Shown here: piece after piece, positions 8,724-62,348 of the stretch
Layout: each line of letters starts with the position of its first letter
Position numbering within the stretch: the stretch's first letter is position 1
Assembly: GCA_963978905.1 (NCBI GenBank)
Contig: OZ022256.1
Coordinates: forward strand, 26,933,426-26,997,425
Length of the DNA: 64,000 bases
Reading direction: 5' to 3'
Source: Trichostrongylus colubriformis
Lineage: Eukaryota > Nematoda > Chromadorea > Rhabditida > Trichostrongylidae
Program-made: the position numbers and the translations under genes
The notes under the pieces: generated by a model
Database searches by the model: none
Told to the model about the DNA's origin: nothing
The model's input: the letters and a program-made list of their open reading frames with translations, nothing else

Positions 8724-11700
8724 TCAGTAGATGAATCTGTCATCGATCAGCTTCACGGACTCCTCTTCTTGAAGTGTGTGCAGAGCCGAGCGAACGCGGG
8801 AGATCTTAGCTTCGGGCATTTGCTGAACTCGTGAAGTGAGGAAAATTGGTATGAACGCTGATAAAGACAAACAGCAATCATTTCACCTCAAACTGGTCCA
8901 GCAGAATCATCGTAGGACTGCTGTCATCGGAACAAATCGAAATCAATTCAATCATATGAGAACAACCTAGCTCCTGAAAGCAACAGAATTTACTGTAAAG
9001 CATGAATTCTTAGATAGTTAGATTGGATGAGCGGATTTGATCCGGTTTAAGACATGGAAGGGCGCGAACTATCAGAAAGGCCGTTGCGGCGACGTGAAGT
9101 GTCAAAGATGGGCTCAAACTTTCACAGCTGATGTGCTTACAAGTGTGCGATTGAGCACTCATGATTGCCTAGGCATCCGAGAAAACGGTGGCTGCGCCCA
9201 TTACCGCGTAGTTATTAACAATGGGATCAGCAAGGTGCTCTACCAGCATGGTGACCGAATTCAGGTGCCCTGTCGCACACTCAGTGCTGGTCGTGGGGAG
9301 TTATAGCCATTCCGCATGCCACGACATCGCGTTGTTGCTATAGCTTGATAATGCTGATTATGCCAATTTGTACTACACATCAGCCTGAAACCATCTGTCG
9401 CGAAAGGCGAGGATCGCTCCTTAGTTCCTGTGGCGCGCCGGCCTCCGTGGGTTTGACCGCCGCGGCTCCACGTTGGTCATATTCTGTGATCGTTCGATGT
9501 CGAACGACAGCCGCGCACCGCGGCACCATCACGGACCTCACCGGGCAGTCTTCTCGCTGGGTTCATCGAATGGTGTGGCGTGTCCATCTCTTTCGTCAAG
9601 ACCACACGGGCCTCGCTAACGAGGCCGGCGGCGGTACCACGGGGCTTGGGCCCTTAGAACAAGTAATGGAATTGTCTCAACTTCTGGACGCAACCTGAAA
9701 TATATAGGGTCGTCGGACGGGACTCGTAGCGAGAGCCCGGCGTGAGTTTGGTTCTAGTTCATTCTGTGTGTTTTAATGATTTCACTGATACTTCAATATA
9801 AACTAGTTGTGCCCCTTCTTGTATCTATCGTGTGTTAGTAGAGGTGAGTCCTCAGTCTTTCTCAGCGGTGTGTGTATGTTATTTCAGTAGGGTTTTACCT
9901 ACAGTAGAGCTTGTGGTTACCGGGTGAAAGTCCTCAGGCGTCGGCCTGTGTAATCCGGTTAATCTTCCCCAAGTAGTTCAGCTTCGCTAATTAGGACCTG
10001 GGAGGGTTAGGCTAGGCGTGGTCCGCGATCAATGCGGACCATCCATGGGGCGCCGTTTGCAACACCATCGACCGATGAGACTTCGAGCAATGACTGCGAA
10101 CTGTGTGAACGGCGGCTTGAGTTGGTGATGCGTCCTTTATCCCGTCTACTTATCAAATGAGAATGCACGCAACTTCAATGACTCCCTACGATTCTGCGTG
10201 AAATAGATTGCGTGGCGTATTCTCCACACCACATGGCCAACATAAATACTTCAGCTTATTTCTATGTACACCTTGCAGTATAGCTTTCACAACGCTTGTT
10301 AGCAGAAGTGCAAACAGTAACCCATTTGTGACCGTGGTAGCTACCGTGGCTGACACGAAGTCGGCCGATTTGGACAGTGACAGCCATATGTTGCTGACAG
10401 ACGTTTCATGGACCTCCTGATAGCACCTTCTGACATTCGAGAAAGTTTTTTTTGAATTAAAGACAGTGTCAGGGGTAATGTGGGTGATGAGAATCCCTAA
10501 GAGGAGTCATTCACTCGAAAACTACGGGTTTGGAAAGCCTATTTGCGGCAAAATCCCCCACGAAGGGTGCGCTCCCGAGCTGTGGCAGAGGCGGCCTTTT
10601 CTGCTCGAGCCGCCTTACTGTGCTCGGTCCGCCTCCTAGCGAGTGATCGGCTGGGGTGGGAATAGGAGGTATCGCGGCCCGCTTTCTCAGTCTTGGCTTG
10701 AAGCGCACTCCAGAAAAGGGATGCTTACTCATTCTCGAACATCTCTTCGTGTTTACAACATGGCAACACGCCAATGGAACACACGTCCGGACCACCCGCC
10801 TCTTCACGGTAATGCTCCACATCGAGAATCAACGGTGGGGAGGAGTCCTATTTCTCGGGTCTTTGGCCATTTCCATCCGTTTTTTCTTCTTCACTATCCT
10901 GTTACTAGGCATCTCGACTTTCACATTCACTACTTCTTTTACTTTTCTGCCGAATTCCCCAAACACTGCCTTTAAACAACTGCCTGCACCCTGCTGCTTT
11001 TATGCAAGCCATGGACCGGAGGAAGGGCCTGTACACTTATAAAAACTCCCAACCCTCAGCTGGGCGGAAAGAGTTTGCTCTAGGACTTTACCTAGTATTG
11101 GGGATATTCAGAGTGCTGATCACGTATACGTATACAACCTCCATCTTTGCCAATTTCACGCCAACGTCAAAAGACCATATTCGTGAAGCACCCCAAATTA
11201 CCCATACAGGCAAAGTTTCAGTAGAATCGACCAACTGTCTGGGGTAGCGATAGTTGAATGGTGCCAAAAGTCCCTTCCCCCACCTGAATACAGGCAAAAA
11301 AAGGATAGACGAGGAACAGAGTGTACAGAAATCCCATAAACTACATTAACAAAAAAACAAAAACCTTGAAAACAAAGAGCATCGAAAACTGGCCACGTGG
11401 GACTGTGTTAGGCACGTATAGCTGACAGTAAGTCGCCGGCCGCAAGTGATGCGGCCCGAACGCGTCATTTTGCAAAAAACGGTCGCAAATGGGTTAAATA
11501 TAGATGTCATTTCAGAGAGGATCTCGACTGAAAGCATCGCAATGGAGAAAAGTGCCGGTTGGGCGTTGCACATGCTGCAATCACTGATACAACATCAGCC
11601 GCGGTCTTGTATCGAAATTGAAGGGTGGTTTGCATAGTGTGTCTGCAGTTGTCCAGCACAAGAAAATAGGGATGGCAAATATTATATCACTCTCTTTTCC

Positions 11701-11862
11701 CTGATCTTGCACTAGAGAGAAGGATTCTGATGCCCCATAATGGATTTGGCAGTCTGCAGCAAAGAAAAAAATGAACCGTTGCTAGCTGTTGCCATTTCGA
11801 GTTCTCGTCCATCAGTTTAGAAAGTCTCAATCGTGTCAAGTAATCGAGGCAAGAAATATCGT
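8724..11862 (-). CDS. death-domain exons (16-18) of the NF-kB-like gene
   Basis: Exon 16 (11777-11862) encodes CLDYLTRLRLSKLMDENSKW followed by QQLAT. After a 2.8-kb intron, exon 17 (8887-8973) continues with ELGCSHMIELISICSDDSSP and TMILLDQFE. Exon 18 (8724-8822) ends ALHTLQEEESVKLIDDRFIY and stops. The W-x-x-LA-x-x-LG core, the SPT...LLDQFE helix and the terminal VKLI helix are the pattern of the death domain at the C-terminus of NF-kB p105/p100. That domain normally binds other death-domain or adaptor proteins. Junctions are ACG|GTTCAT to TTTCAG|GAG and GAG|GTGAAA to TTCAG|CAA, all in phase 0. The donor GTTCAT is not ideal, but the joined motif supports it. Confidence 0.8.
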
Positions 11863-14800
11863 CTGAAATGAACAAAGTTCCCTCCGGAATTGAGTAGATC
11901 AAAATGAAACTTACCCTGTGAAATTTTGCTAAGTCGAGCGCTTCTTCGAGATCTGTTAGCTGAGCTTGTGGATGGTTGATCGTCTACGTATTCCCCGTCA
12001 GAATCAACATCGACGTCACCCGATGCTCCTTCATCTCGATCTGAAAGAAAGTGTTCTTAGCAAACTTACTGAGGCATCACGTGCGCACTAACCATATGAA
12101 GGCTGTGACTGCTCCTGGTCATTCGGTGGATGTGCCCTGGATGGAACGGATGAACGATGCGAAGGAGGAGTCACCACATCAGGAGGTGCAGTTAGACTTC
12201 CGTGAAGATTTGGTAATGACCTACCGAAAAGCGCTGAGCGGGTTGTAGTCAGGTCAGATGGGACTGGTGGAGGTACCTCTTTTTCGGGCAGTTCGACTCT
12301 GAAAATTTTGCCTTTCCATTCACCACGCTTCTAATTTAGGTGTTTATGATGCTTCTAACACGGTAATACTGATAAATCTTTACTGAATTATTGCAAGAAA
12401 CGTCATTTTCCAGGGATCCTTATAACAACTTGCAAGTGTGTCATCGAACGTGATTTAACGCACTCAGGGACTCATCGTAAACATGATAGATAGCAAGTTT
12501 TACCTTCCGTTCAGGACAGTGGAAGTGCAGGGAAATCCCATGATTTTAATTTTTCTCAAAATCACTCCGCAAAATACAGTGCATGAATAGAATTTCATTC
12601 ATTCCAAAGCAGAGATCACAAATATTTAAAGCAAGAGCAACTCGTTTGAATACACGCCACAACGGGAGACGGGCCTTTCGCTCGGCCGGGCTGGCACGCA
12701 ACGATTTGCGCGGAAGACTGCGCGACGCCGCGTCCTTCCGCGGCAACTTTGACTGGAGCGCGAATTCGCATTTAGATCAAGATACTCAGGGGTTTTGTCA
12801 AGAAAAGGGCATTTCCTTCCAATAATGTGTGCTTATAAGGTGTTACCTTCAGGTGTTATGTTCTTATTCGTGCGACACTCTTATTACCACTCAGATTACT
12901 TGTTAATCTCCTTATGAACTAAATTTTGAAAAGTGATGGAATCCGCTATTATTTCGATGACAGTGGGATAGAATCCGTTTTTTCTTCTTACAACTGCCCC
13001 ACTCAACGACGCCGAGGTCGGCCGCGTCGCCGTGCACTTCTCCGCGCAAACTGCCGCGTGCCAGCGCGGACGAGCCAAAGCCCACACACCCCCTCCACAA
13101 CACTCGAACAGCCGCCAGAATGCAGCTCCAAGTTTTGCGCACAGTGCTGATTTGCTTCTCACTATGCTTCCCTGACCACGTGAGTGTCGCCTCTTTGCTG
13201 CTCAGCTCTCTAGCGAACCGAATATCAAAAAATCGTTGAATATGTGAATTACAGACTCAGAGGGAGGGGCAGGTGGAGGGTTGTAGTCTTAATAGTCGAA
13301 AACTCGAGAATCCACTTTTGTGTCTTCCTCAAAACGAAGGTGAGCTCTGTTAGCGAAAAGGGCGGGCTTTATTAGAACAAGTGGCAAAATTCGAAAGAGA
13401 TGGTTCATATAAACCTGATAGCGCTCCTTTCATGACCGAGTGGCCAAAAATTTGAGAGATGTGCTCCTGTCATGCGCCGGCTTCGGCAAGAGACGTGCAT
13501 CTCGATGTGAGGCAGACAGTCCTATGCCTATGCCCTTGGGAGACCATCACACAAAGGCGGTGAGAGCCTGTATCCTGGGAGGTGTGGGTCGATTCTATTA
13601 TATTGTGACTCAGACCGCGATGCGGCGCCAGTGAGCGGGGCATGCGACGTCGCACCCTTCGCGGCCAGAACAGGCTTTGAATCGTATGTGGGACTTCTTC
13701 TTCCATCAAAGAAGCACCGTTTTTTACAGAGGATAACTATTGTTCGATAAGTGATAATGTATTCTCTGGACATTGTATTTAAAGACACCAGAAGGAGGTA
13801 ATTTTGGCCTACGGTAGAACAGACGTAGTGTGGACGAGTTCAAGTGGCCGCCATTGCACAAACTCCCCAATTTGACGCCGTGGCATGGTGCCAAGGAAAG
13901 ATGTTTCTTTTATAAATTTGCTTTTTCCTTTTACTTTTTCCTTTATTCTTTCTTACACTGTTTCTAGATGTACTTACATGAAGATCGTATCGAAACCTAA
14001 TGTGCGACAGCGCGGGCGGTCGCGTGCGCATCGTTGCTGGGGCGCGCTAGTGGCGCCGTACTGAATGTGGAAGTCTTGTAGGACGTTTTGTATGCATCTG
14101 GTATCTCTTTATAATCTGCATCGTGAATCGTTTGTCGTATTGATCGTTAGTATTAATCCCTCGTTCTATTTCACAACGTATCCGACCATTTTCGCACTTT
14201 TGAAGTTGACGGCTTCATTTGTAAAGGAGAGCAAAACCACATAAATGTCTGAATTTGACGCACCCACGTATTATGAACAGCTCCCTTTATCCGGTGAAAT
14301 AGTTGGAGCTCGGTGTCCGGGGCTATTTTTGCCTGAGTTCTTAGCCTAAGCCTTACTCCCCAGAAAAGCCCCTACTTTCCTTAAAGAGGGCTTAGGTAAA
14401 AATATACTCTTGAGTTCACAAACTGATGACTGTGAAACGGTTTCGAGGGACGACAGCGCAACAGTGAGGGTCCTACTCCACAACTACGTTAGCACCTTTG
14501 CATCATCCTTTTCTCGTAGTGTAAAGACGGATGACGGATGAAAGACTACATTCCCATTTAATGTGACTGAATATAAAGAACACCAAACGGAGTCTTCGGT
14601 GCTTTTTCAAGAAGAGAAATCGTGAAACGTCAGTTCTATTGATCTTTTTTGCACTGTCAGTAGCTGATCATTGTTGACTGGATGTTGAAATGTCGACAAG
14701 AATAGAAACATCCCGTACATCTAGACTTTTTATAGCGCATAATATAGCGAATTTATATTTTTATAACGCATAACCACATGAAGCAGAGAAGGAGCGGAGA

Positions 14801-17800
14801 GATCTGAGCATCTATGTTGAAATCGCTGCGCGCCACTCCATCTCTCATTTTCAAAACGTTTGGCTCGCCCCAGCAACGATGCGCACGCGACCGCCCGCGC
14901 TGTCGCACCTTAGGTTTAGATATGATCCTTACATGAATGCTAATGTAGTTGGGAATGGCCACTCCACTGCGCTGGGAGTCAGGTGCTACAACTAATGTTG
15001 GACCACGGCCCGTCTCCTACAACGGGCAACTCGGAAAGTCAGTGCGATGGTGCGAATGAGGCGCGAATACACATCGCAGCGATGCACCTTTAAATTCGGG
15101 TTTTTTCACCGATTATCGCTTCTAACCTTCTGCGTTCGTTACAAAATGCTCATTTCTTTGTACTTTTCTCTTGTTTCGGACCCCTTCCGGTTCCTTTAAA
15201 CGAGTATTGTCTTATTATGAAGGTGAATAGGCTTTTCCAGTGAAGACGTCTGCCTTAACAACTGTTAACAACTGTGTTCTTTCATGGTTTTCACCCACTT
15301 CTGTCCTGTTCGTAGCTTATGTATATGTTTTGAAATGACGAATGTACTACAAAGGAAACTGACATCAATCTTCGTGAAGACTTTCATGAGAACAACTGTG
15401 GGCAAAGTATTTGGCTCAGAAAACTGTCGAGTTACTCGTTACGGTCATACTGAATGGTGTAGAAGAACGTTTTCATCTTAGAACGACGTTCAAAACAATA
15501 AATTCTCAATGCTTAAGCTCTCCATGCCAGCCGCAGCGCAAGTGGCCGCGCGTGGCGTGCACGACGCGACGCAATGGGTGTGAAGATAGAATCGGTCGTC
15601 CCTTATCTTGGGGAGAGCATTTCGCAGTGCGGCGTGCGACGCGATGCTTGCGAGGGAGCCTGCACTCAGTTGTTCCGGATATGTACCCTAATGTCAGGAT
15701 GCCGCTCGATGGCGAGCGGCGTGCGACACAGTGTATGCGAGCTGTGCGCGTCGCGGTAGTTGGGTCTCAAAACGATTACAACGTAATGCTAGGAGTGCGA
15801 TACGCAGTTGACTTCTAATCGCTTCGGGACCCAACAATTTAGCTCGTCCGCATTGCTTCGCTTGCGACATTCCGCAGTGCGGCATCCTGACATTAAGGTA
15901 CACATCCAGTTGTTCCGAGGCGATTTCACCTGAAGTAATGCGCACAACATGGCAATCGCTTCAGACTTCAACAACACAGCGCCCCTAACCTTACGCACCC
16001 TGCAGCTCCCCGCCTCGCCGCAAATCATGCCATAGCTACACATGCAGTTGAGAGCTGCAGGCGCAGGTTATGGTTATTTTTCTTCGAGCCCCTCTTATCA
16101 CAGAATGCGCCGTGTGCCGTCTACCTGAACTGCTTTAATTTTTCTTTCATTGTGAGATATCTCCCTTTACTGGAATATTGTTGTATCCCTGCCTTTAAAC
16201 TAAAACGCTGCTCTAGTGTGAAGCAACCACTCGTTCACATCCTCCAGATAATTATATATCATGTTTGCTGTGAAAAGTGTAGGTAGCTATATCGCATTTA
16301 TTTAGCCCTTCCCCTCTATTTATTTCAATATGAAGTATTTTCTGAGTTGGAGACTTGCGCATGACGTGCTTACCTTTCTCCAGCGATAATTCGTTGAACG
16401 GTCTCATCGGCACTTTCCGACAGCGAGTTTCCATTCCGATTTTGTTTCTTCGGATCACCTCCAGCATCGATCAGTAGGCCCATAATTCCGTAATTTGCAG
16501 TCTTCATGCACAATAAGAGTGGAGTCTCCGCAGATTCGTCTTCGACATTTGGATCGGCTCCTTTCTAGAAAATTACCACTGAAATAAACGAAAATGGAAA
16601 GCAGCAAAGGACTTGATCATTCAAGTGCTCAGCTGTGATTGGAGTGCATGCGAAGAATCGAGACGAAAATTACCCCAAGAAGAAACTGAACAATCTCAAC
16701 ATCGTTCATGTTCACGGCGTGGAATAGCGCGGTTCGACCAACGTGATCCTTTGAGTTTATGGAAGCGCCGGCTTCCAGAAGCATTTCGATCAGGCTTAGC
16801 TTCAATCTTCAAAAATTCAGAATTTACATGGAACTGGTACCACGAGTACTTGAAATATGGAGCAGGTTTTCTGGCTGTCTTTCTCACCTTCGGACAGCGA
16901 GATGCAGAGCAGAGAATCCTTCCTCGTTCAGAGCGTCCAGATCGTTTTCACACGATCCTGGTGCTTCGAGGATTTCTTTGAAAATCGCCTCATTGTATGC
17001 ATCAGCCAAGTAGTGGATCACCTAAAACGTGTAGATCAGTAAGCGCACGAAGAAACATTGCGATTTGAAAAAGAGTGAAAAATTCACGGAGTTCCTGTGA
17101 TTATCGAGGACCCTTGTTTCGCATCCATGACTCAACAAGTAGTGTACGCTGTCAGGATCACCAGCTCGCACGGCACAATGAAGAGCGGTTTGGCCTCGCG
17201 TATTACGCATATTCAATACATCTGTGAATTAAAATATGAAAAAGCGAATAAAAAGCTCATTCACCAAAGACCCACCATCCTTTTTATCTGATGGGAGCGC
17301 TGAGAGTAGTAGCTTCAGGGCAAAGCTTTGTGAGTTTTTTGCCGAGATATGCAGCACTCTAAATCGGAGTTGTTACTCAGTGGCAGTGGTATGGGTATTC
17401 GGATGTGGAGAAATTAGTGAATATGGAAGTCGAGCTGCTTAGTATAACGATAGTGAAGAATAAAAATGTAATGAAATGGTCAGATACTTGTGAAATAGGA
17501 CCCCCTCTCAATGACGATCCCCGAATCCCGCCGGTAGAACGCGGGCCAGATAAAGATGGCAGCAGCAGCATGAAAAGACGCCTCCTCTTTCCCTGGACTA
17601 CAATATTCATGCCGATAGATCACTTCAGGATTCCTCATTAACCACATTAACCATCTCATAGGATTTGACGGAATATCCGAAGACCATATGAGCGAGAATT
17701 TGAGGGTTCAGGAAGGCGAAAAAAGCCAGCTATGATTGAGCGCTGTATCTCCAAGCAGACAGAGTGTGACGGAATTTGCGCTAAAAAGAGCGATTATTTT

Positions 17801-20800
17801 GGGAATATTCCATTTTGAGGAACATTCCCTCGAGTAAATCACTGCGTTAACGATAAGCAATGAAGTCCGAGGAGGCGCTGTAGATAAAGAATATACAGAA
17901 GAAGCTCTAAAAAAGCCAGAATCAATGCTTGCGTCAGCTTGCTCGAGATTGCAGCGTCAAAGTGGATCTTTGGATTTATTCTCACTAGACTGTTCCCCAC
18001 AAAACTCAATGATATCACCTGCATTCCTATGTCAATGTAAACCATTCCAATTTGTTCTTTATCTTACGTCGTTCAAAAGCCTCCTCTACCGCGTCTTGCT
18101 AGCAGTCACGTTTATAGTGGGAGAGCTACCACGGCATGATAAATCGGGCTGTCTTCATGAGCTCGTTATAAGAGTGCGGTTGTTCACTCTCCCACATGAG
18201 CATGCTATATTCCCTTCACAACGTACAGTCCGTCAATGGTGATAGACCTTGAGTGGTAAACCAGCGGCTCAATAGAAATGGGCAGGACGACAAATGCGCT
18301 CGCAAAATCGTGTAACCATGCAAAGGCTGCTGAGCCCGAAGATGCAGCCTCCGTGGTGCCATTTCGAACTGTCTATCCATAGAGAGGGCATAGGATGTTT
18401 CTTCAGCAGGTTCGTTACGCTGGCAGACTGCCCTTGGTTGGGCTCCTCCCAAAACAAGAAAGTCGCTTGAAAGTACGTCACTGCTTCATGTTACGGATCC
18501 GCATGGTTCCCATCGATATCAGTGATGCGGCGTCTATGGTGAGAACCAAGGGGAGAACTGAGGTCCCGTTTTTCAGGTTTTCGGCATTTTATTTCGTTTT
18601 TTCTTGTCTGCATCACTATTTACAATAAACTGATTCTCTTTCGTTCTCAACAAACAAAAATTATAACTCCTATTGCTTTAGGTCAATTAACTGACGTGTT
18701 TCCTTCACTGTCACGGTCACCAATATGGCTTGCGAAAGGGAGGATAAGTGAAGAGATTTCACCGGTGGCAGCGAAATCGGCAAGGCTTTCAAATTGTGAT
18801 GCACCGTTGCTTTCCGATCTGAACATTCACAAATTCGGCATGCAATGGAATAAATCAATAGTAATAGTAAAAGAACAAGTAAAAGTGAAATGTGAACATG
18901 TGGCTCACCTGGTTTTGTAGGTGAAAGGTATACTTATGTGTAATGTTTGACTTCTCAAGGTTAGTTGCACACTTCGATCATGAGTGAACGGAAGCGTAGG
19001 GACGGTGAAAGTGAAGAGCTGAAAATTCCTGTAGGAACGGTAAAAGCGAGAGCAGAAAACTCCTATGTTAATAATTTATTTCAGGAGAACCAGTGGCGCT
19101 GGCCCAATGAGCGCAAGACACCCCCATCTTTCCATCTTCCTCACGCCGCGCCCCACATTCATCCTGTCATAAATTAAAATAATGGATACCTATTGTACTT
19201 ACGTGAAATCAATCTTGAGCCGTATGCCCGTGGGTGAACTGAAGGCCGAAAATCGAAACAAGCTCCAATTTTATCTCTATCAACCTACCTTATCTCTTTG
19301 AACAACCTCCTCTGCTGGAACTCCCTCCTCTTCGAGTGTGAATGATAAACACACAGGATCTTCAACCTGATTCGCCAATATCAGCCATAGCCTGGAATTT
19401 CAAGCCGCATTCCCGAAGTTTTGAACAAGTCTAAGCTTCTATCTAATAGAATCATGCTTTGAAGGGATAGCATACCTATCGCCAGCGAACCCTTCGGTGG
19501 CGCATATGTCCTCAATGAAGAGGCCTCGAGCCGACTGTGATTTTTGTAGTTGGGGAGCCACCACCTGCAAACACTTCTGTAAGGACCGTGTTTGATAACT
19601 GCTCGATCAATTCTACTCAGTACTGTCTCTTAGCTGTTGGTTCTACGAACTTACACGCCGAAGCCTTCCGGAAATTCTTCATCAAAAGGCGGAGAGAATT
19701 AGGAGTCCTGCCGGTTACACCCTTTACTACCAAGGGAGCTAAGATTTTCATCATAATGGGCATTACTAAATTTCGGTACTGTTTGGGTGGATATCGTGTT
19801 GTTGAATTGACCAACCACCAGAAGACAAATTCGCCTGATTCACCTTTCGTCAAGTTCGAGAACCCTTTTATGAGTTCACTGCTGTGATGCAGAGAAGAAT
19901 GCCATGAGTCTGACTCTCAGAAAGCAATGTTGCATCACGACAAAACATCAAGGTAATTGACAATTAGTGCGTCCCACGCTCACATGTATAATTCGCGTAA
20001 CTTTTGTTCAGCCCACTATATCACGACGGCGCGGCAGCGCGCAACGAGTGGGGCGGCGGGTACGAGTAGCAGTGGCAGGGAATGGCAGGCTTCAAGCGAG
20101 GCAGTGTGGCATGGGTGGAGGTGCAGAGGGGACGCAGCCACGCTCTGCCGGGCTCCAAAGGGTAATCGATTCGACAAGTCGTACTAATGGCGCCGCGAGT
20201 GCGACGCCGCGAAGCGATTCTCTGGTGTAAGTGCACACACCCCTACTTCACTAGCGCAGACAACAACTCAACTTGCTTTTCCTAGTGATGTTCGTTGTCA
20301 AGGTTGACTCTTTCAGAGTCATCGTACAGGAAAATGCAACACCCTAAACAGATCACGTACTCTCGAAGAGATTGATTATAGAGGCGTCGAATCAGCCATA
20401 TTATTTCACGTCAATAATGCGACTAACTTTCGCAATGGGTTACGTTACGAAGGGATGTGGTAAACGTCTTGGAATGCGTCCAGATTTCATTTAGGGAAGC
20501 GCCTCTAATACAAAGGCAAAGTGCCAGTATGAAACGAGGTGAGCTACAAAAGCTTCGGAGTGGAGCGATGAAGGGAAGGAACTGGAAGCAATGTTCTCTG
20601 AAAGAGTAGACTAGCTGTGAAGAGATAATCTGTGGTGAAACGCGCGCTTGAGGAGCACCCTCTATCGCGATCTCATGACGCCTCACTACCAGCTGCAGCG
20701 CTCCACTCGCTGAGTTGCTGCGAAGGTGAAGCAACGCCTGCGACTTCTCCTAGCCCCCTCGCTGCCTACATCTAACTCTCAGCGGCTACTAATGCGAAAG

Positions 20801-21823
20801 AGGCGAAAGGGAACGAGTGAAAAGCGAGTTCTATTTTTGCCGTTTTTGGCCGTCTCATCCTTATCCTCTGCTGTTGACTTGGCGAATCGACCTTCATATT
20901 CCGTGAATGGCCACAGATGCTCCTTCCAATGTAACGATACCTTTGCGAGTGCTCCCTCCCGTGGCAAAGCAATGAGCACTCACTCAACTGGGGAATATTA
21001 TCTTCTCATTCAACGCACTCCAAGGATGTGGTCCCGTGCAGCTACACTCGTACAGTCCCGAGGGCACATTTCGCGTTCTTTGGGAGGAGGCATTTTGTGA
21101 ACCATCGTCGTTGTTGAGGTGGCTTTTGTCACACCCCTGCAGTGGCAAGGGTTGGGAACGACACTCCTACCAACATTTTTATATAAGTAATGATAAAGGG
21201 AATTCCATTCCATCAGTAGTGATAAAGGGAATCCGTTGGTGAGCGTCTAATGTATTTCAAAACAACAATGATGTAAAGCAATTAGCAATATGGATAACTT
21301 GAAAACTTGCTGGCCACAGGTCACCTGTTAAATGACTTGATATCATTGACAGCTATGAAAACACACCATTGACTCGCGTCGCGTTTAATGAGTAAAACAG
21401 GGCCATAAAATGAAATGTTCCTCTTGCAAGACTTTTTAAAAGCTCAAAGGCGTTTGTTCTCGATTTCGTTCGAGTCTCACCTTGACCATGTAGGAACCGG
21501 AACGAGAATGTGAAGCTAATGAAAGACGAGAATAAATTTCATTGAATGGTTGAGAACAATGTTTTTGTGTTTTTTAAAGTGCAGAAAGAGGCCGTTGCAC
21601 TGGCGAAAAACCTTGGATAAGACTGACGGCGAGTGCAGCGCGTGCCTGTCACAGGAACGACAGTTGAGCAGCTACATCATTGAAGACTGCGTTGGCGTCA
21701 AAGGCGGTTGATTTCGTCATCTCCAGTAAAGATTCAGTGGGAATGTCTAGGTACTCATCCATCATGCCGCTGTTAGGTTCAGGCTGCACACACAGTTGCA
21801 GCATTGTCCTGCCTATTGTTTCT
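8724..21823 (-). CDS. NF-kB p105/Relish-like protein (IPT-like segment, ankyrin repeats, death domain), 18 exons
   Basis: Exons in order of translation: 21653-21823 (ATG at 21802-21804), 21481-21515, 21325-21352, 21019-21136, 20790-20987, 19476-19564, 19289-19391, 18909-19018, 18763-18818, 17088-17221, 16888-17021, 16674-16806, 16374-16564, 12093-12298, 11915-12040, 11777-11862, 8887-8973 and 8724-8822. Every junction is GT-AG and every phase agrees, giving 2085 nt and 694 residues. Rough domain order: acidic N-terminus 1-50; possible degenerate Rel DNA-binding half 51-177; Rel dimerisation (IPT)-like 178-278; ankyrin repeats about 297-495; Ser/Pro-rich acidic linker to about 604; death domain to the end. 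In other animals such proteins hold Rel factors in the cytoplasm and release them in immune signalling. The large introns (2.8, 4.1, 1.5 and 1.2 kb) hold mobile elements. The ankyrin and death-domain parts are firm, the IPT call is moderate and the first five exons are tentative. Confidence 0.75.
8974..11776. other. intron 16 contents: GC-rich block and dispersed repeats
   Basis: This 2.8-kb intron holds a GC-rich block at about 9395-9760 with small hairpins (GCCTCGCTAACGAGGC; GGACTCGTAGCGAGAGCC). A second structured-looking tract lies at about 9895-10080 with GGTCCGCGATCAATGCGGACC, and a dispersed repeat copy at 10820-10945. I could not assign the GC-rich block to a known element. No coding exon with matching splice phase was found. 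Confidence 0.4.
11915..12298 (-). CDS. Ser/Pro-rich acidic linker exons (14-15) of the NF-kB-like gene
   Basis: Exon 14 (12093-12298) reads VELPEKEVPPPVPSD and then a Ser/Pro/Thr-rich segment. Exon 15 (11915-12040) starts with an acidic run (DRDEGASGDVDVDSDGEY) and ends with a basic cluster, NRSRRSARLSK, that could be a nuclear localisation signal. The acceptor TTTTCAG at 12299 completes the split Arg codon left by the last ankyrin exon more than 4 kb upstream. That phase match is why I place these exons in the same gene. Low-complexity linkers between ankyrin repeats and a death domain are usual in p105-type proteins. Confidence 0.65.
12625..13115. repeat. CG-rich fold-back element in intron 13
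   Basis: Left arm near 12690-12735: GCTGGCACGCAACGATTTGC then GCGGAAGACTGCGCGACG. The right arm near 13010-13085, read in reverse, gives GCTGGCACGCGGCAGTTTGC then GCGGAGAAGTGCACGGCGAC. The arms are imperfect and separated by AT-rich DNA. It is non-coding and probably a MITE of a different CG-rich family. Confidence 0.5.
13778..15200. mobile_element. TTTAAA-ended MITE interrupted by a second element
   Basis: The left part (13778-13982) starts TTTAAAGACACCAGAAGG. The right part (14928-15200) ends CCTTCCGGTTCCTTTAAA. Together they match an uninterrupted relative at 58316-58774 along their length, including GGCCTACGGTAGAA, CATGGTGCCAAG and TCAGGTGCTACAACTAA. The ends are inverted repeats of TTTAAAGNNACCGGAAGG. 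The element lies in intron 13 of the NF-kB-like gene. The interior has no transposase. Confidence 0.85.
13983..14927. mobile_element. long-TIR DNA transposon (Mutator-like?), 945 bp, 10-bp target duplication
   Basis: The ends are inverted repeats of about 63 bp: GATCGTATCGAAACCTAATG leading into a CG-rich stretch with GTGCGCATCGTTGCTGGGGC, mirrored on the right and ending at 14927. Only about five mismatches are visible. CTTACATGAA is duplicated at 13973-13982 and 14928-14937, and the intact MITE at 58316 has a single copy. Long TIRs with a 9-11 bp duplication are typical of Mutator-like elements; the family assignment is inference. No transposase frame is present, so it is non-autonomous. 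Confidence 0.82.
15677..15907. repeat. fold-back repeat with about 29-bp arms
   Basis: GGATATGTACCCTAATGTCA followed by GGATGCCGC at 15677-15705 is repeated in inverse at 15879-15907 (GCGGCATCCTGACATTAAGG then TACACATCC), with two or three mismatches. TTGTTCCG flanks both arms in the same orientation. It is CG-rich and non-coding, in intron 13. Confidence 0.55.
16374..17221 (-). CDS. ankyrin-repeat exons (10-13) of the NF-kB-like gene
   Basis: Four exons (17088-17221, 16888-17021, 16674-16806, 16374-16564) encode five clear ankyrin repeats and a partial sixth. Hallmarks are RGQTALHCAVRAGDPDSVHY, NSVIHYLADAYNEAIFKEIL, EGFSALHLAVRR, LIEMLLEAGASINSKDHVGR, TALFHAVNMNDVEIVQFLLG and KGADPNVEDESAETPL. 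The repeat number, the long insertion before DALNEEGFSALHL and the G-RTAL-HAV repeat resemble the I-kappa-B and p105 ankyrin domain, which masks the nuclear localisation signal of Rel dimers. Donors are GTGAAT, GTGAGA, GTAATT and GTAAGC, each matched by an AG acceptor in the correct phase. Introns between these exons are only 66-109 bp. Confidence 0.88.
17405..17530 (-). repeat. diverged copy of the dispersed repeat seen at 4138 and 10820
   Basis: On the minus strand: GGGGGTCCTATTTCACAAG, TTCTTCACTATCGTTATACT and CTCGACTTCCATATTCACT. This parallels the plus-strand copy at 10840-10940 in motif order. It lies in intron 9 of the NF-kB-like gene. Confidence 0.45.
18763..19564 (-). CDS. Rel dimerisation (IPT)-like exons (6-9) of the NF-kB-like gene
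   Basis: Exon 6 (19476-19564) begins VVAPQLQKSQSARGLFIEDI and runs on to CATEGFAGDR. Exon 7 (19289-19391) gives LWLILANQVEDPVCLSF and an EEEG stretch. Exon 8 (18909-19018) gives LFTFTVPTLPF and then SVQLTLRSQ...IPFTY. Exon 9 (18763-18818) is a short Ser-rich linker. The order matches the Rel C-terminal fold: PVVSD-type entry, G-G-D-E-x-x-LLC strand, V-x-x-x-D-I-x-V-x-F strand, a TPPY-type turn, V-x-L-x-L-R and a final F-x-Y. Conservation is weak at individual residues, so the domain call is an inference from spacing. Exon phases 0, 2, 0, 2 and 1 agree at all junctions. Confidence 0.55.
20017..20240 (-). repeat. CG-rich repeat copy in intron 5
   Basis: Shares GCAGTGTGGCATGGGTGGA, a GACGCAGCCACGCTCTGCCGGG tract and GGCGCCGCGAGTGCGACGCC with the copies at 49262-49500 and 51320-51545. 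The last block is the reverse complement of the CG-rich core at 3868. It sits between exons 5 and 6 of the NF-kB-like gene. Confidence 0.55.
20790..21823 (-). CDS. 5' exons (1-5) of the NF-kB-like gene, possible degenerate Rel DNA-binding half
   Basis: Exon 1 (21653-21823) follows the acceptor CGTCAG and holds the ATG at 21802-21804. It encodes an acidic N-terminus with MMDEYLDIPTESLLEM. Exons 2 and 3 (35 and 28 nt) read FTFSFRFLHGQG and VNDIKSF. Exon 4 (21019-21136) contains VTKATSTTTMVHK and CPRDCTS. Exon 5 (20790-20987) ends IELAFHSFPFASFAL just before the VVAPQ entry of the IPT-like part. The order is reminiscent of the RFRY loop, the H..C...CT segment and the VRL-F-AFL strand of a Rel domain. 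However, the length is about 127 residues rather than about 185, and the conserved RFRYxCEG is not intact. Phases agree throughout, but these exons are tentative. Confidence 0.4.
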
Positions 21824-23280
21824 CTGACGAACTTAGAGAAGGGTTATTGTGCCCAGAGTATATCTGACAACGGGCCACATCCTCTCGGTTTCTGTTAGAA
21901 GCCGTCGGGAAAAAAGCGGACGGTTTTTTCGTGATGCCTACGGAGAATAGAAGTCCAAGAGGGCAGTGTGTCGACTCTGAACTCCATAACATTTAATTAT
22001 AGTATGCAGCTTCATGCGTTCAGTGCGAGCAAGCGTCATTCACTTGCGTAGCATTTCCACATCGTCGCGGCTCCGATCAGTATTCAGTTCTAAGACGCCG
22101 CGAAATTCGTCCATATCAAGATTAACAGTCGGGATACGATTCCCCCATATATTCATCATCAAAACACTGCTCGGTCTCATTCAAGTCCGCTGTTGAGCGC
22201 TGTACAGGGATCCCGTTAACACGCAACTTTACAAAGACTATTCTCAATGGTTTTATCAAGACTTCCCCTTCTCTCACCCTTCTCTTTCTCACTATCCCAC
22301 TACACAATAAAAAGCACGATAATAAAGTTCGCAGTAAGTAGGCGGTGTGATGCTACTTCATGTACCCGCGTTAACTCTAACCCGATGTCACAACTAAGAG
22401 ACCTGATCATGAAGGATGTCAGGATTGGTGACCCCAGCTCAACTATATTCGTTTTTTTAAAAACATGAATGTCGAGCAGATAATAAGGATCAATTACAGA
22501 TGCGCCTAATAACGTCATCTTCTATAGGATTTCCATTCCTTGGGCAAGTTTCCATGAAATTTAAAGAATTTTGTAGGTCAGCTGGGAAAGATAAAAAGTA
22601 ATGGTAGGATAGAAGAGAATCGAAAATGACCACACGACAAGTAAATTCATATTCATACTTTCGTTACTGAAACACTACTAATAGTACTAGCACTTGATTC
22701 AGAATGCTGAAGTCACCTACATATGATGACCCCCCTAAGTTCTTTGACCGTATCAAACAAGTGAGACCTCAGACACCTACAACCATCTGCACAAAAAAAG
22801 TCCGGATTTCTACAATAGTGCTAGGTTCTACAGCACCAACCCATCGGAAACACATCTGCATTTTGAAAGAGAAATTCTTTGCTCAAGCAAGCTGCGACTT
22901 GACAGGCTCAATAGGTGATTACGGCTGATACGTCAGCAGAATACAGTTCAAAGATGCCGGCCTCTCACTGTAGTACCACATAGATATGCTACATACTGGA
23001 GTTGATCAACTTGTTCCAGAATCCGAATGGATGTCAACGACTTCAGCGCACTTCTTCTCAACCCACATTGAGAGTTCTGCGCAGTACTATGCGCACGCAC
23101 AGTCGATCATGCCTTTCTAACATGGAACTGTCAGCAAAACTCACCGGAATTTCACTCCCATCTTCACATGTAACGGATGCATTCTTCTTCCCACATAAGA
23201 ACTACGTAACGAAATCCCTAGCCCAAGTCTTGTTTGGTCTCTTCTCACAACGTTTTTCTTTATTCTTCAAAATGTACATA
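21824..23280. other. no gene recognised
   Basis: This is the region upstream of the proposed first exon of the NF-kB-like gene. A minus-strand stretch at about 22120-22200 encodes ADLNETEQCFDDEYMG after an acceptor-like TGTACAG, and could be a further upstream exon. I could not link it by phase. The rest is AT-rich. Confidence 0.3.
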
Positions 23281-23782
23281 CAGTAGCGGTCAAAAATATA
23301 TGCGGTTATGGATTCTAACCATAACTTTGGTCGAAGTTTACATTTCTTATTCAATTTTTTTTTTGTTTTTTGAAGGCAACTGGTACTCAGTGAAGCAAAG
23401 TAGAGTGTAGTGTTGAGATTGGAAAATTTGTTAAACTAAAAACTCTGAAAATAGCCAAACCTTTCCAAAAATTCAATTGGCCATAAAAAGCTTATAACTC
23501 ATCGAAACGGGCAGGTGGGCAGAAAATAATACGGAATGAGGCTGGGACTTTGTTGCACGCTATTTCAAATCCTAACAGCACTGAGGCACGGAGTTGACCA
23601 TTTTCAGTGGTTTCAGTTAAATAATTTTTTCAACCTTCTCACTGCATCATACTCGGCTGAGATACTTTATTTCATTGAGCAACAGTTGCCTTCGGAACAC
23701 AAAAAAAATTGAGCGAGATATGCAAACATCGAACAAAGTTATGGTCAAAATCCCAAACCGCATATATTTTTGACCGCTACTG
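23281..23782. mobile_element. Tc1/mariner-type MITE, 502 bp, TA target duplication
   Basis: Starts CAGTAGCGGTCAAAAATATA followed by TGCGGTT and ends AACCGCA then TATATTTTTGACCGCTACTG. The 27-bp ends are perfectly inverted. TA flanks both sides (23279-23280 and 23783-23784). The interior is AT-rich and without transposase. Ends and length match the element at 5311-5810 (CAGTAGCG-GTCAAAA), so both probably used the same transposase. Confidence 0.9.
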
Positions 23783-23784
23783 TA

Positions 23785-26740
23785 TGTATTCGATAAAGCT
23801 TTTGCTGATCTGCAAAACCTTCACTGTTTCTTTTCAAAACAAAGTTGTTTCATATTTTTAAGTTTAATAAATAGATACTTAGGAGGCGAAATATACAGGT
23901 TCAGCCCCTGCTTTCTTTCACTTATGGTCGACGTTTTATCAATCGATTTCATTTAGTCAAAAACTTTAACTATAACTATAGATTGATTGAGGTTTATTAT
24001 GCCCTCATTCGATATGAAGCTCTCTGGATTTCGATGTTGAAATGAGCGCAGCTGTCGAAATATCAAACAACTGACTGATTAAATGAGCTAATAGCAGGGT
24101 CTTGTAGTGCAGAAAATGATCAATCAATTATTTGAACACACTTTGTCGAAAAACAAAGAGAATACTCACAAAATGGGAAATACGAGGATAACAAACCGAA
24201 AAATGCGCAAAATCGCGCAATCGCAATGTACGTACGTACATTCCACTACGTAGATCTCTCTACAAGCCCAAAAAACCATTGATAGGAAATTTCACAAATT
24301 CGAAGGATTCTAGGGCAACCGGTGCCATCAAATGAGCTAGCATTATGAAAACTGGGTGTATTTGACGAATTTAACGCTATTTCTTTGATTAAAAAGTCGC
24401 ACTCCATACCAGGTTGACCATGGTGAGCTGTACTATGTATTTGTATTCACTGAGTCATCAAATGCTATAAATGACTGGCATGTCTCGCTGTTGCAGACTG
24501 ACCTCGAAGATCGGGGTGCTCACCTCTGTGTCTGACAGCGACTTGGGCAACGTTCCTTTGCGTTCGTCGACAGCCACACCTTCGGGCATCAACAATTTTC
24601 TGGAACCACGACGTGATACGATCGAAATCGAAGGCGAACTCAAGTTCAAACTATCGAAATCGAATCAAAATCAAAGCTAAGTGGTGGAGTCACGACGGAG
24701 CACAGCTGTGATTGCACGTGATATTGACAGACGCACTCGGTATGAGGAGATATGTCGGTACATTTCAAACATCAAGAATCCTAGGCGTCATTTAAGCTCT
24801 CGGGAAGTATTGGTCAGTACATCAGACGATACAACTCTGTGGCCTGGATTAGGGGTGCGCACAGGAGGCACGATATTTGGAAATATAATATCTGCGGCTT
24901 CATTGATGGTCATATGGGTGAAGCTACACGTTAGAGGCTTTCAAGTCTCAGGAAGTCTCTCATCAAGTAGGATAAGACTGAATGTGAAATAAATGAAGAT
25001 CAGAAAAGACACGAATCGGCAATCGGTGAGCTGGAGTCAAGGGAATCGATTGCATCGTGAGTGTAAAGCGGACTAGCCGAACGCTCTGCCTCTTATTCAA
25101 ACACTCTCGAAATCAAGCCAACCTGACCTCTTAGACCACCTGATGTTCACGCATGCCACCCCACGCCAACACATCAGAAACTCAGAAATTATGTCCGGCT
25201 CTCAGGTATGGCATCTGAGATGACTCATCACTTATCATTCTACGGTCTCTGTGTAGGCCGGCAGGAAGAATGAAGATGAACGTTACAGGGGCAACAACTT
25301 TGACATCACTGGCTCCCACATGGTTAGTGGTCTTCACTCTTTACGAGGCTCAACGCAACTGGGATGTACTGTCGTAGGACTTGAACCTGGCGTGACTTGG
25401 GATAAGATATTACTACTGTAGACTGTGCCTGCGGAATTCGCAAAACTGCTTCTTCTCTCTTTCTTGTTCTTGAAGTAAAGGGAACTACTTGGTACCATTC
25501 TTCAAAACTAGGGATGATGATCTCTATACATCTATCAATGAAAATAAGAAGTAGCACGATTATTTCCTGGTATTAGAAGCTAAATCAAAGCCTTATTTCC
25601 GATGTAAAAGATGTGAAAAGGTTGAACTTGACAATAGAATAGAATGGCATGGATTTCATGGAGAGTCGTTCAACCTTAATGTTTCGAAATCCTCTGAGAG
25701 ATACTGCTGGAATGCCACCTGTTCATTGCTTCTTTGATAATTTGGATAATTGGATGTAGGATTGCTTTCTATTGGGCCTTTTCATCTCACAATTAGTGGG
25801 CTTCTATCGTTTGAAAGTAGTTATCAATTCCATCAGCATGTCGGAGATGGAGAGTAACGTCCAATACTTTGAAGAAGCGGAGCAAACAACGTGACGGTGC
25901 TAACAACTCACTCGTGAACATATTATAATTTGATGGTGGGCGAATAACTCCCAAGGGCGTCCCAGGGTTTTACATCTACGCAAGCAGCGCATTTCTTGAG
26001 AGACCATTCTCACTTGAAATAAGCAACAGCAAAACTCCTTTTCTTTGACTTTCGGCAGTTGTGACGCACAGAGTCAGTGACATCGAAAACATTCTTGGTT
26101 CACGAATTTGAAGAAGAAATATTGGATGCAATCGGGAACAATCGCTGCCTTTACGTTTTGTAACTTCCCAAAATAACTTTGATGTCTCACGACTCAAGTG
26201 CGAGTGGATATTTCAAGTGAGGAAAATCATTCTTCATGATTTGTATCGCGTTTCTCCTCACTCAGTGCATCAGAAAGAGAAAGAGTCACACAAAGTAATT
26301 TGTGCCATTCATGGTGATATCCTATCGCAAGTTACTTTCAAGTCCCACGCTAGTTTTTCCCAGCTGCTCTAAGCTGCCCATAAAGAGTGGTGACCACTCA
26401 TTATGTGGGTGTGCTGACGCTAAGGTTGCTGCCCCTACAGCATTCAACGGCATTCTCCTTGCCGGCCCACACAGCCCCGTTCAATGGGAGGTCCTCGGGA
26501 TATTGCTGCACGATTTAGCACGATTTCAATTATTACAGCAATATCGATTGAGATATGTACCTACAAACAAAAATTCCAAAAATACTTAATATAGAAATAA
26601 AATGACTCTCTTTTGTGACTGCGTGTTGTTCCTCTGTATATTTGCAAAAGAGGGTCACTGTACTTCGACTTATACGTGCAGAATGTAATATTCCAGGGTG
26701 TTTATCAAAATCGAGCGCTCGGGATTTTAATAATTCCGCA
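23785..26740. other. mostly unassigned; one possible minus-strand exon at 24524-24650
   Basis: On the minus strand, 24524-24650 lies between a TTTCGATAG acceptor and a GAG|GTGAGC donor and encodes SISIVSRRGSRKLLMPEGV and KGTLPKSLSDTE. That composition is coding-like (Ser/Pro-rich). The plus strand is also open here after a TTGCAG acceptor. I cannot connect either version to other exons. The rest of the interval shows nothing I can support. Confidence 0.25.
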
Positions 26741-37201: not shown

Positions 37202-39372
37202 TTATTCGCAATCCTGTTGCCAACTTCCATGTTGGTGTTTTCTAAGCCGGCTGCAAAGTGATCTGCAAAGTCGTCGGAGGTGAACACGAGTCAAGTTGGA
37301 AGCTCGTGGAGAGGTTGCTTTCTTGACTCGGTGGCGACCATATACCACGAAAAAAGGATAACCTGTAGGGGTATGTTTACTACAGTTATATGCAAATACC
37401 ATTGGTTGGAGGAAATCCGAACAGACGTCTCTGGCATCGGAACAATAAACGGTGAGAAAGTCAGTGGTGACTTTCACAACCATTCCGCCTGGCCGTTAGC
37501 TTTGTGATCATAAGTGGTAGTAAACTATTAGTTATACCTTGCGCCTTACTGATTCTTATGAGCATTTTGCTGTAGTAGTTAGAACTACGATCTGAAATGA
37601 TCTACTTGAGGATGCCATGTTGTGAGATGGCATCGTTGATGAAAGCTTTGGTGACCAACTCAGTGGTTTGTTATATGAGTGCTGCACACACTACGAATTT
37701 GGATTTTTTTTTTTTTGCGAAAGGGCACTGGGGTACAGGTATTGATCCCAATTCGTCACGTGTGATGTGTTTAAATGGAGTTTTGACTTTTTGCCAAATT
37801 AGGCAGGAAGTAATACACGTGGAAACATCGTGGTATAGACTTGGTCAGAAATATTTTTCTTTTTTTTGTATTCCTAGATATGATCCTAATGGTGGTGTAT
37901 CATAGAGCATTGTTATGATTACCAATTGTTTCACCTGGAATAGTTTCACCTGGAATAGCTAATTTTTGGTTATCATGTATTGAATAAAAAAATTGCAATG
38001 TATAGAGAAATGATCTGATTTGTTTTCAAATTCTCGCGGTGGTTCATCTATCTCGTTGTTCAAGAATTTGATGAGCTGGCCGTATTTTGAGCTTCTTTGG
38101 CTTTCCTGAACGTCTGCAAGGGAAGGTATAGTGTTGCTATGATGGAGCCTATACGCAGTAAAGGAAGTGTGAGGAAATCACAGAATGTATTGTGTTTCAT
38201 AGCGCGATATTCGATTGTGAGGTCGTATGCTTGAATTGAAGTTTGGTATTTGGCAAGGCGGCCGACTAAATCGGACCTGTGAAGAAGTGATTTTAGCGGA
38301 GGTGGACTGTTACCATGGTTATCCGTGCGTTTGCTACGTAGGGGTAGAAATGTGTGAGAGCAAAAACGATGGCTAGAGCTTCGAGATCAATGACAGCGTA
38401 GTTCTCATGTTCGTTGAGGGAGCGGCTACAGTACGCGATAGGTTGTTCGCTTTTGGTCGTGGGATTGATTGCAATAAACATACTCCTAAACCAATGGTGG
38501 AGCGTCTGTTTGTATGATGTATGGTTGTCCAAAAGCGGGGGCAACAAGAAGTGGAGCCTTAATGAGAGCCTGTTTTAGAGCTAGGAACGCTTTTTCGTGG
38601 ATCTCGGTCCAGATGAAGGGTGCGTCCTTGACAAGCAGATTATTGAGTGGGTTGCAATCATAGAAAATCGCGGGATGTAGCGAGGGAAATGCGAGGCAGC
38701 TCCAAGAAATGACTCTACTTCTTTTACGTTTTTGAGGCCTGGGATCTGAGCAATGCTGGCCACTTTTTGTGGGTTAAGGCGAGTGCCGTTTTTGCTAATA
38801 AAGACGCCTAGATATTGTGCTTCGGTTTGGAAAAATGAACATTTTTCAGGAGTTAGTTTCATACCAAACCTTTTTATACGTACAAGTACTTCTTCTAGGT
38901 CAAGCAGATGTTGGCTAATTGACTGACTGGCAATGATAATGTCGTCAATGTAAGCGAAACAGCATGCTTTGATGTCGCGTATTAGATGGTTGGCTACTCG
39001 TTGAGACCTTCGAGGCCTTGTGTCATTACAATGAAGTGGTACAGTCCCATGAAAGAAGAGAAGGCCGTACGTTCCTTATGTTCCTTCGTTAAAGGGATTT
39101 GAAAAAAAGACCACTTTTAAAATCGAGAACGGGACATATCTCTTTACCATTTACAAGATCTAGAATGTTCTGCATATGGGAGATACAATAGGTCTCTGTT
39201 TCTGTAATAGCATTTATTTGACGATAGTCCACTGTGAATCTCCACTGATCTTTATTTGGTCCCTTTTCAACCAATACTGTAGGAGATACAAATGGACTGG
39301 TACTGGGTTCAATGATCCTTGTTCTTAGCATCTCTTTGATTTGATGCTCTATTTCTCGTCGTTTTTCCAAAG
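37202..39372 (-). pseudogene. gypsy-type reverse transcriptase, RNase H and integrase, frameshifted
   Basis: Minus-strand blocks in order: RT fingers VPLEKRREIEHQIKEMLRT with WRFTVDYRQINAIT (39372-39089); RT thumb KLTPEKCSFF and YLGVFISKNG (38862-38581); RNase H AYCSRSLNEHENYAVIDLEA (about 38450-38370); integrase pieces DAISQHGILK, SDRSSNYYSK and VFAYNCSKHTPTGYPFFVVY (about 37740-37300). These are standard Ty3/gypsy pol domains. Frame changes occur between the blocks, and the YxDD box falls in a damaged stretch around 38900-39090. Pol is split from its upstream part by the insertion at 39387. Confidence 0.85.
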
Positions 39373-42666: not shown

Positions 42667-42680
42667 GTACCCGACAAGTG

Positions 42681-42740
42681 CGTTGTTTGGGGATTTTATA
42701 GTGTGGGATAAAATTAATGCTGTGGGTAAAGGGTCCTGTA
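42681..42740 (-). pseudogene. upstream flank of the interrupted gypsy RT
   Basis: Directly beyond the right target duplication, the minus strand reads YKIPKQRT in the same frame that resumes at 39386 on the other side of the inserted element. The open frame therefore continues across the insertion when one copy of the 14-bp duplication is removed. That places the insertion inside the RT coding region. Confidence 0.6.
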
Positions 42741-43046
42741 TTACGACCGAGATTTCCGTCGTTACCTACGATACATTGTTTATACTTACTAAGTAAAATT
42801 TTAAGCGTAAAAATAGCTGTTATTTAAAATAGAGTGATTGTATTGAATTCTACTCAAAAGTGGTTTGCGTGGTTGAACATTTGGAAAAGGGGTAGATCTT
42901 TTACAGGAATATCAGGAATATTCTTTATCATTCCTTTACAGGAATGAGCGCCGGAAGGGGTATATTCGGCATTTATATGTTTTAGTGATAAAGCATGGTT
43001 GAGTTGGTTGTAGATCGAAAATACTGGGAGCCATGGTATAATGTAC

Positions 43047-43716
43047 CTACGAAGCTTGCGGTGGCTGTGGTGGTGTTTTCGGCAAAAATGTGGGTTCAGG
43101 GTTTGAATTATATATGCGTTTCAGAACTGATCCTTCCACATTTGGGCATGAAAGGGTTCTACCAACGAGTAGCCCTTCTGGGAGGGGGCTCATTGGGTCA
43201 TCTGTGGTAAAAACTTCCCATCTCTGAGGAAATGTGGTATAGGTTGTTCCTGTAACCGCATTATCAGAGAAGGGTGGTAAAGTGGTATCTTGAGTGAGGT
43301 AGACTGAAGTTTGACTGGTAACAAAAGCAATGGTTGTTTCGTCAAACGAAATGGTGTTCGCTCCATAATCTATCAATAGTTTTTGGGTGAGTTGAGGAAT
43401 GGTATCGTTTCCTAAGATGAAAGGAGAGGAGTAGTTTTCATCTGCTGCGACATAACATGTAAATTCTACCGTTTTGTCACCGATGAGGAGAGTTGGAGTA
43501 AACTGTCCAAGGAAGTGTATTGGAGTACCATTTGCGGTGATTCCTTTGGCAACAGAAGGTCGGAGAATGCATGCTTTGATCTGTCGGGCTACACTTTCCC
43601 AAACGAGAGATATCGATAAGTGCTATGATGTGCTTATTATTGAGGTGGGTTTGGATATACATTAGTGGACTGGTGGATGCCCGGAGGATGCACGATACGC
43701 TGGGGAGAAAACTCAA
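43047..43716 (-). pseudogene. retroviral-type aspartic protease, active site lost
   Basis: A minus-strand frame to about 43617 reads HIIALID, the lead-in to the D-T/S-G-A catalytic triad of retropepsins. The next residues are in another frame: ISLVWESVARQIKACILRPS. Further on, SPFILGNDTIPQL is the I-L-G-x-D flap-side motif, and LLIDYGANTISF continues toward RT. A small deletion between ALID and ISLVW removed the TGA residues and shifted the frame. The enzyme that would process the polyprotein is therefore inactive in this copy. Confidence 0.65.
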
Positions 43717-45043: not shown

Positions 45044-45049
45044 CGAGCC

Positions 45050-62230: not shown

Positions 62231-62348
62231 CAGCACCAGTAGCCGGCTTACGGTAGCCGCAAACTGCGGTTAGTTGTTAATACAGACACTACCTCTCATA
62301 TGACGTCGGCATGGCATTATAGCAAGTGACGCTTTTCCTCCTTTCTGG

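Follow-up and report, generated by a model that had tools for sequence, protein, structure and literature searches.

NF-kB has been described as lost in C. elegans (PMC8391683, PMC3517549), and according to PMC11432056 p50/p105 proteins are missing from Nematoda. According to PMC7527347, the C. elegans protein IKB-1 is mainly cytoplasmic and expressed in muscle, it is associated with chromatin at 210 genes, and it binds the histones H2A and H3 as well as subunits of PRC2; mammalian p50 or p65 were not co-precipitated by it. NFKI-1, in turn, forms a complex with MALT-1 (PMC7190641), and a protein of T. spiralis was grouped with IkB-epsilon (PMC3553144). Whether NF-kB was never present in nematodes or was lost is still debated according to PMC7527347, whose closing view is that IkB proteins served immunity and stress before NF-kB existed. 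In the literature searched (top-ranked and mostly open-access articles), no IPT domain or Rel remnant is described in IKB-1. The present work concerns a gene contained in a stretch of 64,000 nucleotides of Trichostrongylus colubriformis (contig OZ022256.1, positions 26,933,426 to 26,997,425), hereafter the window, and identified by its sequence as the orthologue of C. elegans ikb-1 in a strongylid. The gene itself is ordinary; what is added here is the reading of its N-terminal domain as a hidden remnant of the Rel dimerisation domain.

The reading that we favour, and consider probable, is that IKB-1 is a decapitated NF-kB of the p105/Relish type that acts as an adaptor similar to IkB and Bcl-3. 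Such a protein would have lost three parts, namely the Rel half that binds DNA, the cluster for nuclear localisation and the glycine-rich region involved in processing. It would have retained, in their original order, a Rel dimerisation (IPT) domain that has diverged, the ankyrins with a half-repeat of the p105 type, and the death domain.

Orthology, ankyrins and the N-terminal domain

A protein search with an approximate query (one wrong exon join) gave 1,069 matches, of which the 120 best were listed. The closest among those listed are nematode proteins, headed by P0001 from H. contortus, which covers 100% of the query at 87% identity (E 0.0), so the core of the gene is not a product of chance. 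Other IKB-1 relatives among the matches listed come from Necator, from T. colubriformis itself (P0005), from C. briggsae (CBR-IKB-1, P0034) and from Brugia (BMA-IKB-1, P0049), and more distant ones include Trichinella proteins named NF-kappa-B subunit (P0054); none of the 120 is named as a protein of C. elegans itself. Within this list ikb-1 is thus found in Rhabditina and Spirurina, with a remoter relative in Trichinella, and the gene is not peculiar to the lineage to which the initial annotation of this DNA referred. The orthologues are co-linear with the window protein, and whole-length relatives exist in several species. Compared part by part with H. contortus, 83 of 89 residues are identical in the IPT-like domain, 27/38 in the half-repeat, 204/230 in the ankyrins, 86/110 in the linker and 87/89 in the death domain; compared with P0017 (47% identity overall), the values are 30/89 for the IPT-like domain versus 130/230 for the ankyrins. 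Therefore, the N-terminal domain is kept among close relatives and drifts faster than the ankyrins.

The ankyrin exons on the minus strand and the C-terminal death domain had both been foreseen from the DNA, and both are borne out by Pfam matches above the curated cut-offs (Ank and Death). The structural model of P0001 shows seven helix pairs at residues 129-360, the first of which is the half-repeat, in agreement with the six to seven repeats of the IkB type. These ankyrins and the C-terminal death domain are co-linear with p105, and residues 135-591 of IKB-1 align with residues 552-942 of p105 in a single alignment of 375 columns, gapped at the linker (29% identity, E 2.5e-49). When the whole protein was used in a fold search, p100 and Bcl-3 led, tied with ankyrin-B.

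Directly before the ankyrins, the AlphaFold model of P0001 (41 sequences) shows nine strands at residues 39-121, with a predicted local distance difference test score of 85-92 (by tens, residues 41 to 120). The predicted fold is a beta-sandwich; the fold-search lists obtained with whole proteins are filled by ankyrins, so that the absence of Rel IPT domains from them carries no meaning. Profile comparisons point to the identity of this domain. A profile of 21 N-terminal domains, the one of the window included, was compared with 177,635 PDB sequences and 12 matches were listed, the first being the p105 chain 1u36 (E 0.1, 27 columns) and the second c-Rel 1gji (E 0.13, profile columns 14-88 on chain residues 191-271). 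A p105 IPT query against the same sequences gave 50 matches at E 0.001, 49 of them named NF-kB/Rel and one NFAT5. The 21-sequence profile was also aligned by hhalign with a profile of 12 p105/p100-type proteins, all deuterostome, and the only meaningful match in their full length was the IPT domain (score 29.2, P 0.002, probability 13.8%, columns 12-90 to 253-346; the next alignment had P 0.73). Against the IPT slice the score was 27.2 (P 0.00018, probability 48.3%), and against the DNA-binding half it was 11.0 (P 0.43). None of 200 column permutations reached the observed scores (maxima of 24.5 for the full length and 17.6 for the IPT slice), and the reversed profile gave 15.3 and 14.8, respectively. 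Masking the invariant Trp column left scores of 27.9 and 25.8, and the 16 Rhabditina alone gave 25.7 and 26.2, with 0/100 permutations as high in each of these four comparisons. The IPT signal requires a family profile, since those of 21 and 16 sequences succeed and small sets fail; with a single N-terminal domain (approximate, with one wrong join) the best PDB match, at E 0.41, was unrelated.

Several observations weigh against a Rel origin of this domain and of the protein. Pfam RHD_dimer was found in 0/41 relatives at E values up to 10, and the hhalign probability for the IPT domain is modest, about 14-48%. The four strongylids alone scored 16.8 and 14.4, with permutations as high in 20/100 and 9/100, and neither the window sequence alone (16.6) nor the five Spirurina (12.3) gave an IPT signal by hhalign. 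The chain 1u36, which is probably an engineered variant, carries Trp at the position of the invariant Trp of the family, where the eight p105/p100-type proteins compared have Tyr or Phe; apart from this chain, none of p50 was matched by the 21-sequence profile within E 10. The Tyr of p105 at this place is presumably a dimer-interface residue. Since the top PDB match has a Trp that is absent from the p105 proteins compared, our confidence in a decapitated NF-kB, and in the more far-reaching version given below, is slightly lower; the c-Rel match is free of this objection. A rival view is that IKB-1 belongs to the IkB/Bcl-3 type proper, with no Rel half at any time in its past, and that it gained the N-terminal beta-sandwich and the death domain independently. 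Four points would fit this view: BCL3 was named as closest by BLASTP (PMC7527347), Bcl-3 is tied with p100 by VIA (25.2 vs 25.5), IkB-beta and IkB-alpha lead the fold list of the Setaria model, and Pfam sees a Rel domain in 0/41 relatives. Nevertheless, a single alignment with p105 runs through the half-repeat, the ankyrins and the death domain of IKB-1, the profile of the N-terminal domain points to the Rel IPT at the expected place, and two independent gains that yielded the order of p105 would be less parsimonious; an IkB/Bcl-3 origin is for us unlikely.

DBB domains have an IPT-like fold and precede the ankyrins in the adaptors Dof, BCAP and BANK, and the N-terminal domain could in principle be one of them. 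A weak Pfam match to DBB was indeed obtained (E 0.14, 12.5 bits, residues 30-95 of an approximate query with one wrong join); however, it lies under the cut-off of 22.2 bits, DBB is not among the Pfam families listed for the 41 full-length members, and IKB-1 has a death domain and a p105-type half-repeat, which leaves this assignment very improbable. The identification of the beta-sandwich as a Rel IPT domain is supported but not proved. The upstream exons that had been called IPT-like retain that description through the PDB ranks, the hhalign scores and the permutations, each of which is weak by itself, and they do not have the support of Pfam RHD_dimer. Taken as a whole, the combination of IPT-like domain, ankyrins and death domain supports kinship with p105 and Relish.

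The missing Rel half

In the window model, as in the rhabditid orthologues compared, the stretch ahead of the IPT-like domain is no more than tens of residues long, which leaves no space for a Rel DNA-binding half. Pfam PF00554 (Rel DNA-binding) was found in 0/41 relatives. A profile of the N-terminal half of the Rel homology domain (RHD-N), run against the 2,753 six-frame open reading frames (ORFs) of the window, gave a best E value of 3; this is a weak scan that alone proves little, because the p105 IPT profile (best E 2.3) also misses the IPT exons of the window, which the family's own profile finds at 6.5e-12, 5.6e-11 and 0.0055. The 589 residues of the protein contain no run of four Lys/Arg that could form the basic nuclear-localisation cluster, the residues after the IPT-like domain being RSESNGASQF; the glycine-rich region is absent, with a single GG in the protein, and so is the IKK degron DSGxxS, with no DSG at all. 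C. elegans IKB-1 likewise lacks this degron, according to PMC7527347.

According to the initial annotation, a full-length NF-kB precursor was retained here in altered form; it is considered in the following as one that binds DNA. The domain order is right for it and an IPT-like domain is present; on the other hand, there are only the tens of residues mentioned above, P0004, whose contig measures 2,044 bases, begins at MPDS, the RHD-N scan, within its limited sensitivity, found nothing better than E 3, the interval 21823-20790 is unsupported by P0001 and P0005, and four ORFs taken from this interval and its vicinity all remain under the Pfam cut-offs. This proposal has almost no probability left. 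Of what had been suggested, the p105/Relish-type kinship stands, through the PDB ranks, the hhalign scores and the one-piece alignment with p105, and the complete precursor falls; similarly, among the Pfam families that had been expected, Ank and Death are above their cut-offs and RHD_DNA_bind and RHD_dimer are found in 0/41 relatives.

A decapitated NF-kB would be incapable of acting as a DNA-binding factor. Its ankyrins would hold partners, its death domain may take input from death-domain kinases or scaffolds, and its IPT domain could pair two copies of IKB-1 or pack over the ankyrins. A more far-reaching version, which we regard as a tentative possibility, is that nematodes never lost NF-kB outright and that ikb-1 is an NF-kB gene stripped stepwise, its product pairing through the IPT domain and acting on chromatin without reading DNA. 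Of the Rel DNA-binding half, Trichinella would have kept the opening stretch; Spirurina would have a beta-rich N-terminal remnant (a low-confidence model with no profile support), and Rhabditina would be left with only the IPT dimerisation domain, the ankyrins and the death domain. The start of the Trichinella protein, RLKIIQQPKKFCRF, was likened to the first stretch of the Rel domain in a borderline match of 16 columns, with permutations as high in 0/100 for the RHD-N slice and 1/100 for the full length. Residues 1-165 of Spirurina, searched for a remnant of the Rel DNA-binding half, showed no signal, since permutations were as high in 7/100 with full-length p105 and in 24/100 with the RHD-N slice. 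Outside the nematodes there is P. varius, presumably a nematomorph. A Relish homologue was found in this species and in a priapulid (PMC7056985), which suggests that the ancestor had NF-kB.

Gene model and surrounding sequence

The model supported by the orthologues occupies 24589-8724 of the minus strand and comprises 15 exons and 589 codons (Table 1). Exons 2-15 were obtained by reading the ankyrin and death-domain frames together with the splice sites, and exon 1 by tblastn of orthologous proteins against the window. All 14 introns are GT-AG and phase-compatible, although gttcat, the donor that follows exon 13, seems a weak one. For exon 4 an acceptor at 19028 was dropped, since the orthologues place it at 19018; for the same reason a small exon near 19239, an alternative join of exons 3 and 4 weighed by eye, was discarded.

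Table 1. Exons of the ikb-1 orthologue in the window
Exon	Positions	Strand	Content	Remarks
1	24524..24589	-	Likely start codon and 22 residues MPEGVAVDERKGTLPKSLSDTE; donor gtgagc	tblastn of P0001/P0005 N-termini; outside the initially annotated interval
2	19476..19564	-	Linker and first IPT strands	Phase 0 in, 2 out
3	19289..19391	-	IPT core LWLILANQVEDPVCLSF	
4	18909..19018	-	C-terminal IPT strands (LFTFTVPTLPF ... SIPFTYKTR)	Acceptor set by orthologue sequence
5	18696..18818	-	p105-type half-repeat (SLADFAATGEISSLI...), into ankyrin 1	
6	17276..17358	-	Ankyrin	Support includes Pfam
7	17088..17221	-	Ankyrin	Support includes Pfam
8	16888..17021	-	Ankyrin	Support includes Pfam
9	16674..16806	-	Ankyrin	Support includes Pfam
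10	16374..16564	-	Last ankyrins and C-cap (VQRIIAGER)	Support includes Pfam
11	12093..12298	-	Ser/Pro-rich linker, LFGRS at residue 412	
12	11915..12040	-	Acidic/Ser-rich linker	
13	11777..11862	-	Death domain, first part	Support includes Pfam
14	8887..8973	-	Death domain, middle	Support includes Pfam
15	8724..8822	-	Death domain, end, and stop codon	Support includes Pfam

The initial annotation described 18 exons and 694 codons with no exon list, so the comparison is limited to the ends of its interval and to two junctions. Its stop at 8724 is correct, and so is its junction 16374/12298, which is crossed without a break by P0001 and also by P0003 and P0004, two proteins from short contigs. 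The 5' part has to be replaced: the exons placed at 21823-20790 are used by neither P0001 nor P0005, and instead of the junction 20790/19564 H. contortus has, before the VVAPQ of exon 2, the 22 residues encoded at 24589-24524, to which 19564-19476 joins in phase 0. Four ORFs chosen from 21823-20790 and from the neighbouring stretch at 19.6-19.9 kb all stayed below the Pfam cut-offs, the highest at 12.1 bits vs 25. The T. colubriformis model P0005 differs from the H. contortus type at the 5' end, where its donor lies 7 codons beyond that of exon 1 and one more exon is present upstream, at 25174-25127; the start given in Table 1 is therefore only a likely one. Also missing from P0005 are exons 11-13, together with 11 residues of the first ankyrin, and the short intron stretch SKFCCFQ is read instead. 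Among 445 aligned residues it differs from the window protein at 7, of which 6 lie in one stretch where it reads into the intron; this agreement points to T. colubriformis or a very close species as the source of the DNA. That two neighbouring genes were wrongly joined, with IPT-like and ankyrin/death exons in separate transcripts, is scarcely conceivable. The gene is interrupted by introns of 4.1 kb and 2.8 kb, P0005 is without exons 11-13, and beyond exon 13 the sequence of P0003 turns into unrelated residues up to its end, as though it had entered the intron; but whole-length relatives occur in several species and P0004 (594 residues, all domains) and P0003 come from contigs of 2,044 and 2,147 bases, so short that they are probably spliced products.

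Within the gene, the LFGRS motif between the ankyrins and the death domain is present in 26/41 relatives and LFGHS in 2/41; it is a possible docking or modification site. Introns 1 and 10 contain inverted repeats (23275-23367 / 23696-23788, 93 nt, 87%; 13983-14047 / 14863-14927, 65 nt, 94%; 15677-15743 / 15841-15907, 67 nt, 70%), perhaps small transposons. Elsewhere in the window, an uninterrupted ORF of 1,070 residues at 39411-42623 (+) has endonuclease- and reverse-transcriptase-like stretches (YADDVV), which look like those of a non-LTR (long terminal repeat) retrotransposon; it is flanked at 38581-39075 (-) and 43047-44392 (-) by what by eye look like an LTR-type reverse transcriptase fragment and polyprotein pieces. 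An ORF of 347 residues at 62304-63347 (+) is SAC3/GANP-like by eye (CMTMCPEAEIRFR), the GC skew of the window peaks at 42001-48000 (0.23-0.33 over about 6 kb), and Rfam and tRNA scans of the window gave no match.

Comparison with known NF-kB and IkB proteins

If IKB-1 is a headless NF-kB, it would be a relict of the transcription factor itself, and its role at chromatin would be derived and not ancestral. No difference in kind was seen between the window protein and C. elegans IKB-1, CBR-IKB-1 or BMA-IKB-1, which represent the same gene with the same domain order. The Trichinella NF-kappa-B subunit proteins (P0054, P0124, P0126) share the ankyrins, and Pfam finds the death domain in P0124-P0126; unlike IKB-1, no IPT domain is visible by eye in their models. 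Unlike IkB-alpha and Cactus, IKB-1 of the window has no DSGxxS degron, and its death domain and the sandwich at its N-terminus distinguish it from Bcl-3, IkB-alpha, IkB-beta and IkB-zeta. What sets it apart from p105, p100 and Relish is the absence of a Rel DNA-binding half, of a basic cluster behind the IPT domain and of a glycine-rich region, and about ten residues separate its IPT-like domain from the half-repeat, versus well over a hundred in the p105 proteins compared. With these same proteins, p105, p100 and Relish, it shares the order of IPT-like domain, half-repeat, ankyrins and death domain.
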